Below are positions 615 to 21,330 of a DNA stretch of 21,330 nucleotides, one piece after another. The stretch comes from a virus. The stretch covers positions 1-21,330 of IMG/VR virus record IMGVR_UViG_3300031963_001061. One strand, 5' to 3'. Each line of letters starts with the position of its first letter. Position 1 is the stretch's first letter. The notes below the pieces were generated by a model. That model was not told the DNA's origin, ran no database searches, and saw nothing but the letters and a program-made list of their open reading frames with translations. The translations under genes were made by a program, and so were the position numbers.

Positions 615-809
615 TTATATTCTGCCCCACCTAGATTTATAGTAAAGTTCGTTAAGCCTAGCTCTCTCTGCTGTCATTGTCCAGAATTTATCGCAAGCAA
701 TATTAACTAACTTGCAAGTCTCATAAAACCACGGGTCATGGTCGCCATTATCAACGCCAGCTTTTCTGTGGTCATGCGCCGAATCTTTTATATAAGTCTT
801 TTTGTCCAT
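615..809 (-). CDS. 64-aa hypothetical protein
   Basis: Starts at ATG 809, inside the end of the sulfhydryl-oxidase gene (22-base overlap), and stops at 615, just before the start of the next gene. The product is charged and rich in aromatic residues (DPWFYETCKLVNIACDKFW, then RARLNELYYKSRW), with two Cys. It is probably a small soluble helical protein. No family recognised. The coupled overlap with the oxidase gene hints at shared expression, but nothing shows a shared function. Confidence 0.65.
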   Translation of the reverse strand: MDKKTYIKDSAHDHRKAGVDNGDHDPWFYETCKLVNIACDKFWTMTAERARLNELYYKSRWGRI

Positions 810-1390
810 AAATTCTCTGCTTCAGAAAGCGACAATACTGGCCTTCCATTCCGCGAGTTGACATCGTTATGTATACCAATTCCCCATTTCCACAAGTCTG
901 AAAAATCTGGAGGAAAATGCTTGCAATAGTCTTCAAAATGTTGTTGGCACGGACAACCATTCCATGGAATAGAATCAGCCCAGTTCTTAAACCAACTCTC
1001 GATGAATGCGCGATCCTCGCAGTTCCTATTGCGAAGTGAGAACAAATGTAGTTCTGCCCAGTATCTAGGCCCATCGCGGAGTATCACAGATTGAATTAGC
1101 GCACGGTTGCGCTCCGATTCATCCAATGCTCTCTGAACCCAGTCGCAATGCTCGTCCCAGTTCAACCCAATATGCTCACAGACCATCTTCTCGACATCAT
1201 CAGCAATCGAATAACCACTAATAGACTTTGAGCGGACGAATGTTTCGACCAGTTTACCAAGTGCTACGAGGAACGAATGATCTTCCCTAGCACCATAATC
1301 AACAACAGGGATAATCAAATGATCACCGATAATCTCGGAATCACTAAATGGCATTAGTGATGGATCAACTGACTTCGCCTCAAACTTCAT
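788..1390 (-). CDS. Erv1/Alr-type FAD-linked sulfhydryl oxidase-like protein
   Basis: 200-aa product. Residues about 105-195 match the Erv/Alr fold that oxidises thiols to disulfides using FAD and oxygen. Visible marks are a Trp-x3-His pair (W111, H115), a Cys pair at C146/C148 followed by QQHF, then PPDF, and the flavin-binding HNDVNSRNGRP (H174, N178). Family members carry C-x-x-C before the (Q/R)xH(F/W) segment; here it is C-x-C, so the redox site is atypical. Residues 1-100 are an extension I do not recognise, with C71 and C82 as possible shuttle cysteines. No signal peptide, so it is probably cytoplasmic or virion-associated. No clear Shine-Dalgarno sequence; the leader is AT-rich. A plausible role is disulfide formation in virion proteins, but that is inference. 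Confidence 0.75.
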   Translation of the reverse strand: MKFEAKSVDPSLMPFSDSEIIGDHLIIPVVDYGAREDHSFLVALGKLVETFVRSKSISGYSIADDVEKMVCEHIGLNWDEHCDWVQRALDESERNRALIQSVILRDGPRYWAELHLFSLRNRNCEDRAFIESWFKNWADSIPWNGCPCQQHFEDYCKHFPPDFSDLWKWGIGIHNDVNSRNGRPVLSLSEAENLWTKRLI

Positions 1391-1514: not shown

Positions 1515-1676
1515 TTATTTTCCCATCTTGCGAGTCTTAGCCGCTTTCATTGCGCGAGCTTTGCGCTGAACACTATAGGCGATTGCCAAACTTTGCTTCA
1601 ATGGCTTGCCAGATTTAAGCTCAGTTTTAAGATTGCGTGTGAAACAATTTTGTGAAGCACATTTACGGATTGGCAT
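1515..1676 (-). CDS. Small basic phage protein (NL..E..SGKP.KQ..AIAY..QRKA motif)
   Basis: 53-aa Lys/Arg-rich product beginning MPIRKCASQNCFTRNL. The core ELKSGKPLKQSLAIAYSVQR matches a pattern I know from many short phage proteins (Asn-(Ile/Leu)-x-(Thr/x)-Glu-x-x-x-Gly-(K/R)-P-x-(K/R)-Q-x-x-A-I-A-x). These are usually found among structural genes and have no established function. ATG at 1676 is preferred. A TTG at 1716-1718 would extend the protein by 14 residues, but the known pattern begins close to the chosen Met. The leader lacks a good Shine-Dalgarno sequence. Two Cys (C6, C11) are present near the N-terminus. Confidence 0.75.
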   Translation of the reverse strand: MPIRKCASQNCFTRNLKTELKSGKPLKQSLAIAYSVQRKARAMKAAKTRKMGK

Positions 1677-1714
1677 AGCTTTTATGTTGTATGTTAATTT
1701 TAGTTTGGATGCAA

Positions 1715-4700
1715 TCAAAAAGCAGGAAATTCTTCTTCTGAAGTTTCTTTTTCTCCTTCGACTTCTTCACCTTCTTCCTCAAGTCCAAAGTCAGTTGCCC
1801 TAGCTTGAATTCCCATATTGCGAAGAAATCGCTTAGTCTGAGGCCATGTTTGCTGATTGATAGGACGAATCATATTTTCAGCAATTTCTGGATCAGTTAA
1901 AGACCTAGCAAGCAAATCAGCGTAAATCTTACCAACATCATCTTTAGCCCTTTGATTTAGCTTTCTAATCAAATCAATAGCTTTCCAAGCAACATAGCCT
2001 TTAACATTGGCAAAGCCGATTGCGCCAATAGACATAAGGGTATCTGCAACCTCTCCCTTTGTGACATCCTTTTTAAGAATCTCATTTGGAGACAATGTTG
2101 TTTTGCGAGCCATTGAATCAAGAATCTGGCGCGACCTATCAAGAACATTCATTTCTCTTGAATTCTTGCCAAAAATAAGCTCAAGTGTTTTTCTTGGTGC
2201 TTTGCCTTCTTCCAACAATGCACTAATCTTGCCCAAGTCAGCTTGCAGTGTATCAACTAATAGGACAGGGTCAGGAAGTCCTTCAGTTGTTGTTGCTAGA
2301 GATATTGACCTTACTTGACTATTAAGCCATTTTCTAGCAGCATTAATAACTCCTTGAGTTGCCTTTCCAGTTGGGTCTTTAGCAGCAGAATTCAATATAC
2401 GCTGCATCTGAGATTGAGAAGTTTCGGCATTTGACATGATATTACGAACAACCTCACTGGCATCTCCTTCAATGAATCTATTTGCTGGATTTAATGAGGT
2501 ATTCTCAAATTCTTGGAACTCATCAATGACTTGTTTTCTCTTAATTGTTAAAAGCGTATCAATTTCTTTTTTAGCCTTACGAGCTTCATCAAACGCATCC
2601 TTCTCTGGAGTGCCTTGAGATATTTTTTTCTTAGCTACTTCATCAGCACTATTCTTTGCGCCATTTGCAGATTCTTCAAGATTTCTGAATCTTGATGCTA
2701 AATTATTAACGGCTATTTCAGCTTCAGATGGAGTTCCTTTAAATGCTCTAAATATTACAGAACCGGGACCATCCCTCCATTCTTCAATAGATTTTGATGT
2801 TGAAAATCCCTTAGCTTGAGGTTTTTTCAAATGATCGACAACACTATCAACAATCCAGTTGTCAACTTCCTTAAATCCTTTTTGCTTCAGCGCATCGACA
2901 TTTGCAACGCCAGCATCTTGTAGTTGCTGAAGAGTTACAGTAACTCTTGGATCGCCTTCAATGGATTTACGCAATCTAATCAAATCGTCTTCAGATTTAC
3001 TATATTTATCTAGAATTTGAGTTAGGCTAGCACCTTCTTCAAATGCTTTCTCTGCTGCGCCAGACTTATACACACTAGCATAATCTGAATAAAATTTATT
3101 AGCTTCAGCAATTTGAGGATATGTTGATTCAAGTTTTTGCAAGTCACTATCAAGTGCTTTTTTGACCTTGAGCATGATCCTTCTTTGAGCTTCATTTCTT
3201 TCAGTAGAAATAGCCGCATTAAGCTCCTTTAATGAGGCAGTAACATCTTGAAGTTGTTTTTTATATGGATTCCCTTGAGGATCAACCAAGTTTCTATAAA
3301 TGCTTCTAACTATTGCTGGAATCTTTTGATTCAATTCAACTTGATTTTGAATTGATTCTTGTGCTGTTTCTCCAACTATGCGTTCTTCTTTGGATACAGC
3401 ACCAGATGGAACTAGGCTTTCAATTTCAGACCTTGCTGTTTTTGGCTCAAATGGTTTTACATCAGTAATTTTATCATACAATGTTGTTGCGTAGTCGCTT
3501 GCAAATTTCTTTTGCTTTTGAATTACATCAGCAACAGCTTTGTTTGTATCAAGTTTTTGCGTTCCAATGCGCCTTGATTTTTCGGCATCAAAAGCATCAT
3601 CAAGAGTTTGCTTTGACTCTTTATATGCTTGTTCAGCATCAATTTTACCAGCAGCAAGATTCTTTTCAGCCTCATCAAGTTTTATCTTGGCATCTTCAAG
3701 TTCTTGCGTTGCCTTCAATCCTTGAACATCCAAATCTTGAATTGTTTGTTTATATTGATCTTTTAGTGTATTGTATTGATTCAAGAAGAATGTCTTTGCA
3801 TCTTCCGCTGGTGCGCCAACTTCAGCCATTCCACGGCCAATTTTTTTACCAACACCTTGAAGGTTTTCAAAACTGCGTTGAGCAACTTCTTGAGATGATT
3901 TTTCCAATGCCTGCTGGAATGCAAGCATAGTTTTGTTGTTTGTAATATCACCGATCATTAGCTTAACATCATCATCAGAGATGTTTCCAGCCTTGCGAAG
4001 AGCTTGGATTGCTTCTTCTCTTGATTTTTCATCTTTGAAAGCCGACTGATAAACAAAACGAACTTTCTCTTCAGCTTCCAATGCTTTTTTTGCTTCAGAT
4101 GGAGCGAGTGCGCCTTTTACTTTAGCTACCGCAGGAACAGCAAATCCTGTTGCCAGACCAGCGATTGCAGGAATTGGTCCTCCAAGTCCAGCCTCTTCTG
4201 CTCCAGTAGATGCTAGTGCTGCCGCGCCACCAGTTGCAGCTTGAAGCAGCGGTTGTTCCCCCATAAATTCAGCAGCCTTTTTGACTTTAGTAGCTTTCGG
4301 GGTTAATCCAGCAAGCATTTTAGCTCCTTTTGTGAGAGCCATAGCTGATCCGCCAGCACTCGATACCCCCTCAAGAGCAGACTCAAGGATTTTTTCTGCT
4401 GCTGTATCTGATTCTGGTATTCCTTGCTCGCTAAGAAAATTTGAAATTATACTCCTTGAAGTTGGGATGTCTTTTCCCGTAAGTGCATTTACTCCCTCCG
4501 TAGCGAGATCTGTTAGCCCCAAAACAATTGGCCCTGCACCAGCACCAATCAATGCTCCCGGAGGTCCGCCAATCGTTGCTCCAAAAATTCCACCAACCAC
4601 AGCTTGAGCAGCAGGAACAGATAGACCGCGCAATGCTGCCCCGCCAAGTCCAGCTAAATCAGTTTTAGGCTCTGCTTCTACTTCTTTAAGTGTATCCGTT

Positions 4701-7760: not shown

Positions 7761-8054
7761 TTATTTGATATTTAGTTTTTTTCGTGCTTCAAGGCATAAG
7801 TCGCCATTCGGCTTAAATTGCCTACAAGAATTAGGTCTGTCAAAGTAAATTGAGCATGATACACAATTTCCTACAACGCCTTGCAATGCCACACATCTAT
7901 TATTCTCAGTTTTCATCAAAGGATAGTCTCCTCGTTGCATTTCTTTCGGTATCTTTTCTGCATCCGATCTGTCACGCTTAAGAAGCGGCCAAGACCATTT
8001 GTAAGAACAGCAAGCACCGCAAGAAATACAGTCTTCACTTGTTACTTCTTCCAT
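7761..8054 (-). CDS. YkgJ-type cysteine-cluster protein (putative Zn/Fe-binding)
   Basis: 97-aa protein with nine cysteines in the spacing of the YkgJ family of putative zinc- or iron-chelating proteins. C9-x2-C12-x2-C15-C16 (CISCGACC) is followed by C54, C64-x2-C67, the family's IYFDRPNSC (C77) and a C-terminal C87 in LCLEAR. The length is that of a minimal single-domain member. The biochemical role of the family is not established; an Fe-S or Zn site is the usual proposal. It overlaps the end of the PP-loop gene by 13 bases, so the two are translationally linked and likely act together. Found between structural genes, so it is an accessory function. Confidence 0.85.
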   Translation of the reverse strand: MEEVTSEDCISCGACCSYKWSWPLLKRDRSDAEKIPKEMQRGDYPLMKTENNRCVALQGVVGNCVSCSIYFDRPNSCRQFKPNGDLCLEARKKLNIK

Positions 8055-8878
8055 TCCACAGGGCGGAATCCAAGGTCATCAATAACGATGTCCTCGTATG
8101 GAGCCATTTCGCTTATATTCGTGATAGTGGCGTTTAGTTTAGGGCAATGCACATGACGACCTAAATGTCGATTCACGCAATTAAAACAAGTCGGATAAAA
8201 GTCGGCATTGAGAGATTTATCTGGATTGTTATACCACTTATCATCTTTTTTAATATACCGAGTTGGATCAGGTTCAACTCCACTTTCCTCTAAATACTCA
8301 AAAATATCATCATCAGTCCAGTCGCGCATTGGATATAGCGATACTGGCGAACCATCAACAATGCGGATGTCTTGAGCGAGCGGAACATGACCTTTGATTA
8401 GGTCAGTATCCTCGTATTTAGTTCCGATAAATACTGCACCCCACGGCCAGTTAAATGTTCCAGTAGGGCGTTGCAGGAAGTCATCAACGCCACACAAGAA
8501 CCTTTCATCTGACTTTGGAGTCTCTGTTCCCAAAGATAAGACTACGCAATTTTTACCCCATTGGAAGTAATGAAGCATATCGAAGCGAACCTCGCCAGTA
8601 TTGACATCTGGGCCATCTGCGAGTGAAACCTTCATCGGCGGATACTCATATACCTCCAAGTCCCATTCCTTGATTAAACGATCAGAATAGGCATATCGCT
8701 CACGGAATTTTGGCTGACGATACTGAACAACAGGAATATCAATCTCTGCTCCATATCGGATCAAATGAAGCAATGCAGTAGAGTCTTTACCTCCACTCCA
8801 TAATACTACTGATCTAGGCCATCTTTTGTTCCACTCTTTTATTCTATTTATTGTTTTATTTATTAGGTGATGTCTCAT
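8042..8878 (-). CDS. PAPS-reductase-family PP-loop ATPase/nucleotide hydrolase
   Basis: 278-aa enzyme of the adenine-nucleotide alpha-hydrolase superfamily. The PP-loop SGGKDS is at residues 28-33 after a short strand (VVLW). A second family mark, YPMRDWTDDDIFEYLEESG, is at 182-200. Near the C-terminus are C231-x2-C234 (PTCFNC) and C245 (HCP), possibly a metal or Fe-S site. The ECGLH motif of assimilatory PAPS reductase is absent, so calling it CysH would be unsafe. Relatives activate or transfer sulfur or adenylate groups in sulfate reduction, tRNA thiolation and DNA phosphorothioation (DndC). It starts on the stop of the preceding virion gene (1-base TAATG overlap) and overlaps the YkgJ-like gene downstream. 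The substrate is unknown. Confidence 0.85.
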   Translation of the reverse strand: MRHHLINKTINRIKEWNKRWPRSVVLWSGGKDSTALLHLIRYGAEIDIPVVQYRQPKFRERYAYSDRLIKEWDLEVYEYPPMKVSLADGPDVNTGEVRFDMLHYFQWGKNCVVLSLGTETPKSDERFLCGVDDFLQRPTGTFNWPWGAVFIGTKYEDTDLIKGHVPLAQDIRIVDGSPVSLYPMRDWTDDDIFEYLEESGVEPDPTRYIKKDDKWYNNPDKSLNADFYPTCFNCVNRHLGRHVHCPKLNATITNISEMAPYEDIVIDDLGFRPVEWKK

Positions 8879-18421: not shown

Positions 18422-18546
18422 TAATATTGTGTAATCCGACCTTCTTTTTGGGCTTGTTCGTATTCTTCCTTGGTCACTTTATTTTTAGCAAGGATTTCTT
18501 TAGCTTGTTCGGTTGTCATGTAATGGATGTTAATGTAGTTTTTCAT
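18421..18546 (-). CDS. 41-aa hypothetical protein
   Basis: Runs from ATG at 18546 to TAA at 18421-18423. The start overlaps the tail-spike stop (ATGA) and the stop overlaps the next start (TAATG), which argues strongly for a real coupled gene. The product begins MKNYINIHYMTTEQAKEILA and continues as a charged helix-turn-helix-like stretch (KNKVTKEEYEQAQKEGR). A second Met at residue 10 is an alternative start. The first seven residues equal those of the following membrane protein. Function unknown. Confidence 0.6.
   Translation of the reverse strand: MKNYINIHYMTTEQAKEILAKNKVTKEEYEQAQKEGRITQY
18526..18546 (-). repeat. Duplicated start region, copy 1 (21 bases)
   Basis: First seven codons of the 41-aa gene, MKNYINI. 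They match the first seven codons of the next gene at 19 of 21 bases. Both differences are third-base changes that keep the amino acid. Confidence 0.8.
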
Positions 18547-20309
18547 GCAATGACATACTGACCAGTAAATATAATTGATGTTGTTGCGGAAAGATCACCT
18601 AAAGAAACTGTGCTTGGACTTGCTGAAGCTACTGTTCTTTTATTAAGCCTGATTCTATTTGTATTTAAATCAAGCGAACCTTCCATTGAAACAATGGATG
18701 TTGTCATATTGGATGTAAGACATTGAACAACGCCTTGGAATTCATTCCCATTTTTAATTGTAAATGGCAATCCAGAAATTGCTATCTGCCCAGTAGCATC
18801 AAGAGAAACAGCACTTAAATTTATTCTTCCAGTAAAAAAACAACGATTCCCTATTCTTGTGTAAGACCCAGTTTGAAGTCCGTATGCCCAACCTGTTCCG
18901 CTTATAGTTACACCTTCAAGTGATGGGGTAAATGTATTTTCATTATAAAATGAAAGTGCAGAATCACTTGCATTAAACTTTATTCCTCCATTTGCAACAA
19001 TAGCTCCAACTGGATAATTTGCTGAAATGCTATTGTATATTTCTACGGCACAATTAATAAGTCGATAGTTTCCCCAATCTGAAAGTAAATAATTTGCCCC
19101 AGTAATACTTTCCAATGAAAATCCACCTTCAGTTCTTCCAACTGATGGTTGTGTTCCTGTAATTCTAATTCCCTCTGCTGCCATATAGGTATTACAGAGT
19201 CTCATGTTTAAAGAATCAACAGAATCCCCATTAAACCAACATCCCCATTTTCTGGTAGCCCTTCCATCCGTTATTGCATTTGTTCCAGAAATAATTAAAG
19301 AATTACTTAATTCTGAATATCCAGATGCAATATAATTTGTAGATGATGTTGGACTCAATACAACTCCTACACCATCATTATTTTCAGATGTATAAGAAAG
19401 TAATGTATTTCCTCTATGAAACCATAGTCCAATTCCATATCCCCATAATGGATTTGTTGTTTCATTAAATGCTTTATCTGATCCATTTGCGTTTGCATAT
19501 AGATCAGAAATTGTTAATGCGTTAACTTTATTTCCACCAGTCCATGAATAATCTAATGTTCCCCTTCCTATAGAAATTCCGCAACCTTGATTTTTAAATG
19601 CACTTATTTTTTCATAAACACCGCTATAAGTTCCATCTAAATAAAATGCGTGTTTTGTAGTATTTGTAATTACTATATTTTTGATTACAGGTTCAGACAA
19701 TCTTATTGCATAAACTCCAAATCCAGCTTTATTATTTCCATCAATTACGATGTTTTCTAATTTTAATCCAAAAACTACAGAGTCAAAAGTTTGTGGATTT
19801 TGAACTCCAATAGATGTAAGAGATACAAGCAATACTGCTGTTGTGGTGGACATTGGCCCATCATAAAACAAAATACATTCTTTTTTCCCATCCCATGTTG
19901 GCCCACCAGATTGCGATGTATATGGATAATTTGTTGGAAATTCACAACCTATAATACCTGCATTTCTATTTCTGTTTGGTGAAATAATAAGTGACGATGT
20001 AACTCGATATTTACCTGCTGGGAACAATACTGTTTTATTAGAATCCAAAGCCGCTTGAATCGCAGCAGTATCATCCGCTACCCCATCACCCACCGCACCG
20101 AAGTCCTTCACATTGACCACATCAGCAAACCTGTTTGCCAATGTCCTTGCCGTAGTCGATCCAGTTGCCGTGACATTGGTATTGCTGATTGCCCCTACAA
20201 AGCTATTTGCTGTGACTACGCCAGCGTTGCTCACAGTCATCTGGTCTACTCCACCTACCCCGATTATTGCCTGTGTTCCGTCTACTGATGCTTTAATGTT
20301 TGCGCTCAT
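18543..20309 (-). CDS. Tail spike with pectate-lyase-like beta-helix (588 aa)
   Basis: 588-aa host-recognition protein. Residues 1-65 are an N-terminal anchor-like segment (GVDQMTVSNAGVVTANSF) with a TARTLANRFADVVNVKDFGA linker. Residues from about 66 start a pectate-lyase-3-type right-handed beta-helix, marked by KDFGAVGDGVADDTAAIQAA and VLFPAGKYRV; the strand-rich coils continue to about residue 450. The C-terminal domain (about 455-588), with FTPSLEGVTISGTG, TGSYTRIGNRCFFTGRINL and IAISGLPFTI, is a beta-sandwich common at phage tail-fibre ends. Homologues are trimers that bind or cut surface polysaccharide. Catalytic residues cannot be assigned by eye. It starts 3 bases after the previous stop. 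Confidence 0.85.
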   Translation of the reverse strand: MSANIKASVDGTQAIIGVGGVDQMTVSNAGVVTANSFVGAISNTNVTATGSTTARTLANRFADVVNVKDFGAVGDGVADDTAAIQAALDSNKTVLFPAGKYRVTSSLIISPNRNRNAGIIGCEFPTNYPYTSQSGGPTWDGKKECILFYDGPMSTTTAVLLVSLTSIGVQNPQTFDSVVFGLKLENIVIDGNNKAGFGVYAIRLSEPVIKNIVITNTTKHAFYLDGTYSGVYEKISAFKNQGCGISIGRGTLDYSWTGGNKVNALTISDLYANANGSDKAFNETTNPLWGYGIGLWFHRGNTLLSYTSENNDGVGVVLSPTSSTNYIASGYSELSNSLIISGTNAITDGRATRKWGCWFNGDSVDSLNMRLCNTYMAAEGIRITGTQPSVGRTEGGFSLESITGANYLLSDWGNYRLINCAVEIYNSISANYPVGAIVANGGIKFNASDSALSFYNENTFTPSLEGVTISGTGWAYGLQTGSYTRIGNRCFFTGRINLSAVSLDATGQIAISGLPFTIKNGNEFQGVVQCLTSNMTTSIVSMEGSLDLNTNRIRLNKRTVASASPSTVSLGDLSATTSIIFTGQYVIA

Positions 20310-20312
20310 AAA

Positions 20313-20660
20313 TTAAATTGCTGAAATGATAAATGCTAAAAGTTGATCGTATCTAATCCCGTATCTGTTGCCAGCTGGTCGATATTGTTGAATTACATTT
20401 CCATCAGAATCTTTTTCTTCTGGCTGTTCGTCCCACTCATCATAGCATAGCAATCCATATTTAGTAGCGTCAAGTTCTTCTGATTCAAATGCCGATACAA
20501 CTTCTTGTGCAATAACGCCAATATGGATTCGGGCATCCTCCCCTTTTGCAGAAACTGCATCTTTGAAACGGAACTTTTTAACAATTGATTTTAATGAAAT
20601 AGCAACTCTTTTTTCAGCCTCATTTAGATTTTCAATATCTTGTTTTTCTCGCTCGTCCGA
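20313..20660 (-). other. S74 self-cleaving chaperone domain of the tail fibre
   Basis: The domain begins with the Ser of S-D-E-R at 20658-20660 and runs to the stop. Conserved S74 features present are the SDER-x-K-x-DI start, the helix with KSIVKKFRFKD, IHIGVIAQEV and the C-terminal YD(Q)LLAFII strand-helix. Family knowledge says that the peptide bond before this Ser is cut after folding. Confidence 0.8.
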
Positions 20661-21330
20661 AGTGTTAATTACATTAGTCCCTGCAAAAAGTTGTGACCAA
20701 CGAAATGATCCACTTCCAAGTGATACAAGATTGTCTGAACCGGGAGTAAATGATCCCTCGCCAACACCTGTAGGAACAGAGAAAATATCAACATACCCAA
20801 GAGAGTTGCTATATCTCGTTCCAAGACCACCTGTAGATGTTGTTCTATTTAATGTAAATGGTAGTGAAGATGAGTATGCACCTTGATTTCCAAGAACAAA
20901 TGAGCCGCTTGTATTTATTCCATAACCACCCATCTTGTGATCTATTTCAAATGGAGTAGTAAAAGAGGTTAGCGTGAATAGAGGAATGGTTTGATCCCAA
21001 ATATTATTTTTAACAATGACATTTGTAAATGTATTAGAAGACGACCTAATTACAGAAACAACTGTAGCACCAAGATTTGAAACTGTATTATTAGTAAAAA
21101 TAAATCCACTTATATCATATACTGAAATAAATGCCCACCTATTAGCTGTTCCATCCAATCCCACCGAATCAATTAAATTATTTGTTATAACAAAATTTAT
21201 AGGATTAACAACTGGACTTGATGAATCATTTAATACAGCAATAGCCCCAGCAGATGTTCCGCAAATTGTATTTCCAGAAATCAATGTATTTTCCAATTTG
21301 GAAAGACCATCAAATCTAATTGATGTAAAT
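20313..21330 (-). CDS. Tail fibre with C-terminal S74 intramolecular chaperone, N-terminus outside the window
   Basis: The frame is open to the window edge, so the gene is partial at its 5' end; at least 338 codons are seen. The visible N-terminal part is a right-handed beta-helix of the parallel-repeat kind (NTLISGNTICGTSAG, FVITNNLIDSVG, FIFTNNTVSNLG, VIVKNNIWDQ). The last 116 residues form a peptidase-S74 chaperone: TSDEREKQDIENL, IHIGVIAQEV, and YGIRYDQLLAFIISAI at the end. In this family the trimer folds, then cuts itself just before the Ser of Ser-Asp-Glu-Arg and releases the chaperone. Ser is encoded at 20658-20660, so the mature fibre would end there. Confidence 0.88.
   Translation of the reverse strand, partial: FTSIRFDGLSKLENTLISGNTICGTSAGAIAVLNDSSSPVVNPINFVITNNLIDSVGLDGTANRWAFISVYDISGFIFTNNTVSNLGATVVSVIRSSSNTFTNVIVKNNIWDQTIPLFTLTSFTTPFEIDHKMGGYGINTSGSFVLGNQGAYSSSLPFTLNRTTSTGGLGTRYSNSLGYVDIFSVPTGVGEGSFTPGSDNLVSLGSGSFRWSQLFAGTNVINTSDEREKQDIENLNEAEKRVAISLKSIVKKFRFKDAVSAKGEDARIHIGVIAQEVVSAFESEELDATKYGLLCYDEWDEQPEEKDSDGNVIQQYRPAGNRYGIRYDQLLAFIISAI

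Follow-up and report, generated by a model that had tools for sequence, protein, structure and literature searches.

A clade of phage Erv/ALR-like proteins with a C-x-C pair at the predicted flavin-proximal site and an N-terminal domain linked to an ATP-grasp gene

The gene at 788-1390 and the predicted fold of its product

We analysed a stretch of viral DNA of 21,330 nucleotides, termed the window in the following and corresponding to positions 1 to 21,330 of IMG/VR record IMGVR_UViG_3300031963_001061, with a focus on an open reading frame that occupies 788-1390 of the minus strand and sits within a run of minus-strand phage genes. It has an ATG start, ends with a stop codon at 788-790 and encodes a protein of 200 amino acids composed of a degenerate HELVE-type N-terminal domain and an Erv/ALR-type domain, i.e. 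a domain of the family of flavin-dependent sulfhydryl oxidases; all features of the gene given below lie on the same strand. The N-terminal domain (residues 1-95; 1106-1390) is, judged from the alignment of the relatives, related to the phage HELVE/PYxxQH domain, of which it represents a degenerate form shortened by a deletion of about 30 amino acids, and it contains the sequence GKLVE at residues 45-49 (1244-1258) replacing the HE-x-x-E of intact relatives. The Erv/ALR-type domain (residues 101-200; 791-1090) carries the residues with which members of this family form their flavin site, namely W111-x3-H115 in the first helix (1046-1060) and H174-N-x-V-N178 in the fourth helix (857-871), with W111, H115, H174, N175, V177 and N178 being invariant in 30 sequences. 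The redox pair is encoded by the codons TGT CCG TGC at 947-955, which read GCACGGACA on the plus strand and on the minus strand encode Cys-Pro-Cys, residues 146-148, located at the N-terminal end of the third helix in the Erv half. The original prediction, made from the letters of the DNA, had reported both intact flavin-site residues and a C-x-C in place of the usual C-x-x-C, and both statements are confirmed here. It had also mentioned two cysteines within the N-terminal extension, which are C71 and C82; C124 (codon 1019-1021) and C156 (codon 923-925) in the Erv half come in addition. These latter two are jointly conserved only within the window's own Erv clade and could form a structural or resolving pair. 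No CX9C pairs are present in the 200 amino acids of the window protein.

The structure model obtained with AlphaFold2 from a 30-row alignment has a mean predicted local distance difference test score (pLDDT) of 87.4 and a predicted template modelling score (pTM) of 0.64. In the Erv half it shows helices at residues 102-120, 127-140, 147-158, 166-180 and 188-199, corresponding to the four-helix bundle with a perpendicular fifth helix of Erv/ALR proteins, and helix 3 begins at P147. A Foldseek search of the PDB with this model returned the sulfhydryl oxidase pB119L of African swine fever virus (ASFV; 3gwl) as the best match (E 3.5e-4), with all of the top 24 places being taken by Erv/ALR chains and TM-scores normalised by target length mostly ranging from 0.6 to 0.7. 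The Erv/ALR-like fold that had been proposed from the sequence is thus what structure prediction and structure comparison deliver. The same ASFV protein is also the closest PDB entry by sequence (E 2e-8 when searched with the window protein alone and 5e-11 when searched with the profile of the clade), and the profile additionally finds the Erv/ALR proteins of Arabidopsis (Erv1, 2e-6), human and yeast. The Pfam family PF04777 (Evr1_Alr) matches residues 110-195 with an E-value of 6e-6 and 26.9 bits, the curated cut-off being 27.6 bits, which is exceeded in 21 of 22 related records with a match.

Compared to Erv1/ALR proteins of family PF04777, and in particular to ASFV pB119L, the window protein has in common the predicted five-helix fold, W-x3-H, HNxVN and the location of the second Cys where helix 3 begins. 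In contrast, its first active-site Cys precedes the second by two and not three residues, and the stretch leading from the conserved Pro to the second Cys is two residues longer (IP-WNG-CPC in the window protein, LP-CTRC in ASFV). We read these alignments as placing C148 opposite the second, FAD-proximal (flavin adenine dinucleotide-proximal) Cys of a canonical CxxC, the two additional residues following the conserved Pro. The window clade furthermore differs from Erv1/ALR in having an N-terminal HELVE-type domain and in lacking a conserved shuttle pair: a second Cys pair of this kind, found in many Erv/ALR members, is not conserved among the 30 sequences. From the sequence comparisons, the clade appears as a homologous variant of Erv/ALR that is set apart from standard members by its C-x-C.

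C-x-C as a character of the clade

The FAD-adjacent C-x-x-C is regarded as the molecular signature of the Erv/ALR family (PMC10598087), and a survey of QSOX proteins found the inner residues to vary within the CXXC frame (PMC3616962). A shortened frame in a single metagenomic sequence might simply reflect a decaying oxidase of one lineage or an error in sequencing or assembly, and the original prediction had considered a degenerate site. We collected 30 full-length IMG/VR sequences, including the window, with identities down to 34%; in all 30, both Cys and the Pro are kept, as are the R/W/H of the first helix and the residues of HNxVN. C146 and C148 are the sole invariant Cys residues in this set and no further pair is shared family-wide. 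These initial searches for relatives were partly seeded with the motif and were therefore rerun with alignments of the sequence downstream of the motif only, in two versions (A7 and A10) yielding overlapping sets. Among the best 80 of 203 relatives in A7, 65 sequences are distinct, comprising 52 with C-P-C, eight with C-D-C, three with C-S-C and two with C-G-C. The best 80 of 177 relatives in A10 contain 69 distinct sequences, of which 40 show C-D-C (one, L205, assigned by eye), 16 C-S-C, six C-Q-C and four C-G-C, while C-A-C, C-N-C and C-P-C occur once each. Neither set holds a C-x-x-C (0/65 and 0/69), i.e. the spacing is shared by 65/65 and 69/69 distinct sequences, far more often than expected by chance. 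The central residue varies among P, D, S, Q, G, A and N, and the flanking Cys residues never change. Homologues restoring C-x-x-C had been named beforehand as a refutation of the original prediction; none was found in the clade.

At the level of the DNA, the motif does vary within the C-P-C set, solely synonymously: of its 52 distinct sequences, 26 have TGC and 26 have TGT as the codon of the first Cys, and all four Pro codons are used. The ratio of nonsynonymous to synonymous substitution rates (dN/dS) among close relatives of the window is 0.08-0.32 for the Erv half and 0.02-0.13 for the N-terminal half, both being well below 1, and therefore neither half is decaying. The loss of signature residues and of about 30 amino acids from the N-terminal half in the window lineage is what speaks for decay; the invariance of CxC in more than 100 distinct sequences from many metagenomes, the synonymous codon variation and the low dN/dS of both halves speak against it, and we regard decay or error as very improbable. 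A frameshift or assembly error hiding a CxxC was ruled out by the presence of CxC in all homologues of the clade. The sequence data thus indicate that the C-x-C at the FAD-proximal place is genuine and under selection, neither an error nor a decayed site, and the notion of a degenerate site gives way to that of an invariant motif under purifying selection. More than 100 distinct phage sequences from many metagenomes share this spacing, which is one residue shorter than in every characterised relative found.

Examples of the C-D-C/C-S-C/C-G-C group also exceed the PF04777 cut-off. The members of this second phage group (L160, L165-L258) are small Erv proteins in which the pair is C-[DSQGAN]-C and the first half is shortened. 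In another four loci (L143-L146) a CPC Erv domain follows an unrelated N-terminus without HELVE, in records without the ATP-grasp gene described below. The only phage-like CxxC form met is a CTEC on contig L051; queries with L051 and with canonical or cellular Erv sequences returned L051 alone among viral Erv proteins, so that the viral CxxC background is uncounted. Searches with tblastn using several members gave no match in 50,697 records of isolated phages at the limits used, the CPC domain had no match in host genome contigs, and PF04777 had none in 300 genomes of one archaeal phylum.

The HELVE-type domain and its link to an ATP-grasp gene

The first about 130 residues of close relatives form an intact version of the N-terminal domain, with the signature HE-[LM]-VE-A-W-L-C ... 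PYxxQH and with H49-E50, E53, C57, D71, E79-P80, Y88, H92 and E99 (numbering of L013) being invariant. The combination of HExxE and PYxxQH is suggestive of a metal site, as judged from the sequence. In the window lineage HE..E has become GKLVE, so the HExxE/zincin-like ligands kept as HE[LM]VE in intact relatives are missing, and the deletion of about 30 residues includes the PYxxQH loop. PHROG 7302 matches the N-terminal domain of two intact relatives (L011, L013) and of a standalone protein (L075); it does not match the window copy, from which the residues of HExxE and PYxxQH have disappeared. The 100-amino-acid extension, described in the original prediction as being of unknown fold, is hence not an orphan, being a degenerate copy of the phage-wide domain of PHROG 7302, a family without an assigned function. 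A model of the intact domain reaches a pLDDT of 95 and has no confident match in the PDB, the weak matches being the zincin-like 4l7a and CapP 7t5t with probabilities of 0.12-0.20, too low for naming the domain after them. The HELVE domain also occurs standalone in other phages, in records without an Erv domain in the sequenced part, and a HELVE signature is missing from the CDC/CSC proteins. A HELVE query of host genomes gave one match, L098, located on a contig binned to the metagenome-assembled genome of a Nitrososphaerales archaeon, which may be a phage contig.

In most relatives with an intact HELVE domain, a gene of about 430 amino acids lies directly upstream. It belongs to the ATP-grasp enzymes: divergent members match PurD/GARS, and the main group is joined to these PurD/GARS-like members by profile comparison (probability 95.7), direct BLASTP between the subgroups giving no link. 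A record-wide search found this gene in 13/13 records with an intact HELVE site and in 0/15 with a degenerate site, several of the latter being longer than 60 kb; most records are fragments, so absence of the gene is not proven record by record. The absence predicted in advance for a new clade was observed in 8/8 degenerate and 4/4 HELVE-less records. This initially perfect co-occurrence is weakened by L105, L116 and L117, in which the site is intact and the ATP-grasp gene is missing, its place being taken by other genes. A tree of the Erv domains with 50 rows, with L114 being unscored for the HELVE site, contains 23 rows with an intact site and the gene, two with an intact site without it, 24 with a degenerate or lacking site without it and none with a degenerate site and the gene. 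HELVE site and ATP-grasp gene change together in five to seven of seven phylogenetically independent pairs (sign test, median p 0.03). Seen from the ATP-grasp side, 41 of 80 examined loci belong to a close clade of about 50% identity or more with HELVE within 2.5 kb; few close-clade loci lack HELVE, and a more distant ATP-grasp clade mostly does. A profile search of the window record gave no match for the ATP-grasp gene.

We considered whether the Erv half serves a pathway of HELVE and ATP-grasp enzyme, e.g. by oxidising a Cys-containing product, with C-x-C being specialised for this pathway. Most C-P-C members do have Erv fused to HELVE, with the ATP-grasp gene adjoining when the HELVE site is intact. 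However, the Erv half with its C-x-C persists after loss of both the HELVE site and the ATP-grasp gene, outliving them in about seven or more independent contrasts, HELVE occurs without Erv in other phages and the CDC/CSC proteins carry no HELVE signature, making such a dedicated fusion enzyme quite improbable. A viral Erv domain fused to an ORFan domain has a precedent in Mimivirus R596, which differs by its CxxC, its CX9C shuttle and the C-terminal position of the extra domain (PMC3509050), compared to CxC, an N-terminal domain and phage carriers here.

Two records, G361 (loci L141/L153) and G362 (loci L142/L152), have two distinct HELVE-Erv and two ATP-grasp genes each, as if the pair had been duplicated or twice acquired, and at L072:506-2854 the ATP-grasp gene is interrupted by an intein-like insert with matches to Intein_splicing and LAGLIDADG_3. 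In the window, the next gene downstream (615-809, minus strand, 64 amino acids) overlaps with its start codon the end of the Erv gene and belongs to family F6, present in 7/37 compared sequences; ACDKFW proteins resembling its product lie downstream at other loci. Upstream, a small Lys-rich open reading frame (1515-1718, minus strand; family F5) is a conserved neighbour. The same gene run includes a gene for a protein resembling reductases of 3'-phosphoadenosine 5'-phosphosulfate (8042-8878, minus strand) and a gene of the CxxCxxCC metal-chelating family PF03692 (7761-8054, minus strand). A tail spike-like protein and a protein with a C-terminal Peptidase_S74 chaperone domain are encoded at 18543-21296 on the minus strand.

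A candidate flavin thiol oxidase with C-x-C as the FAD-proximal pair

Directly supported are the predicted fold, the motif and its conservation, the link of the HELVE site to the ATP-grasp gene and the purifying selection acting on both halves. We favour, with a probability of roughly two in three, that the window protein belongs to a large clade of phage Erv/ALR-fold proteins acting as flavin thiol oxidases with C-x-C as the FAD-proximal pair; FAD binding, catalysis, the electron path, the substrates and a scaffold role of the N-terminal half are what we infer on this basis. FAD would lie within the helical bundle, held by the W/H of the first helix and the HNxVN of the fourth. C146 would be the outer Cys exchanging with substrate thiols, which reduces the C146-C148 disulfide, and C148, at the canonical FAD-proximal position at the start of helix 3, would hand the electrons to the flavin, from which they would pass to O2 or another acceptor. 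There is no other conserved Cys pair, and we therefore propose direct oxidation of the substrate without a shuttle disulfide. The N-terminal half would be a remodelled copy of the domain whose metal-site-like or ATP-grasp-associated function is gone in the window lineage, probably being retained as a scaffold for folding, dimerisation or substrate binding.

C-x-C disulfides in model peptides are more oxidising than the typical CxxC of the Erv type, and the potential of the window pair may therefore lie closer to that of the flavin, as would be appropriate for direct oxidation or for isomerisation. The original prediction had raised a more oxidising or isomerising role of the pair, a proposal in keeping with the behaviour of C-x-C disulfides in other systems. 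For yeast Erv1, potentials of -215 to -260 mV for the proximal CxxC and of -148 mV for the FAD are given (PMC7318334). Erv2 and Erv1 also use C-x-C, among C-x-x-C and C-x4-C, as a shuttle disulfide, in their case as a distal, flexible pair with the FAD-proximal pair being CxxC (PMC3509050), whereas here the CxC itself takes the predicted FAD-proximal position.

The pair might alternatively shuffle or reduce disulfides, with the FAD fold being kept and the flavin being of minor or structural importance. Small CxC peptides can mimic protein disulfide isomerase. Mia40, the partner of mitochondrial Erv1, likewise has a redox-active Cys-Pro-Cys, although Mia40/CHCHD4 is built from twin CX9C helices, is a client of Erv1 and does not have the Erv fold (PMC8069373). 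An isomerase acting without flavin would not need the flavin-site residues, which are as invariant as the Cys residues, and we consider an isomerase or reductase unlikely.

A conserved C-x-C could also hold a metal. According to this explanation, Zn or Fe would be bound by C-P-C together with His151, and the Erv fold would be reused for structure or regulation, with no redox function. This is in line with the invariance of the +3 His among C-P-C members, with the metal suggested by the HExxE signature of the intact N-terminal domain and with the 2Fe-2S cluster reported to be bound by the CPC of Mia40 (PMC8069373). The His at +3 after the second Cys is, however, also found in canonical oxidases (ASFV CTRCQHH, Arabidopsis CRECADH) and is missing in the CDC/CSC/CGC group, and the flavin residues are kept, so that we judge a metal site to be somewhat less probable still than an isomerase.

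Several points weigh against the flavin thiol oxidase itself: the window protein falls 0.7 bits short of the curated PF04777 cut-off, the model as a whole reaches a pTM of just 0.64, and the conserved C-x-C with its His could be the metal holder just described. The host cytoplasm is moreover reducing and no signal peptide is seen, leaving the site of thiol oxidation uncertain. In the literature, with most subscription journals outside the search, we found no phage Erv protein and no C-x-C at the FAD, a limited negative; none of the solved structures matched has a C-x-C at the FAD-proximal site, a comparison covering these structures and not cellular Erv proteins at large.

A bolder version of the oxidase, which we put forward tentatively and with more doubt than belief, would be that phages carry a large undescribed class of flavin thiol oxidases with C-x-C at the FAD, uniting an oxidase and a Mia40-like pair and oxidising clients directly in the bacterial cytoplasm, and that many phages have this oxidase in fusion with a new HExxE domain which acts together with an ATP-grasp ligase, the two-gene module being repeatedly lost as a unit. 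The repeated co-loss ties the unannotated PHROG 7302 domain to an ATP-grasp enzyme. The natural C-x-C clade offers a direct test of how the spacing of the two Cys residues sets redox potential and direction, and its existence suggests that disulfides are made or rearranged by some phages in the course of an infection.
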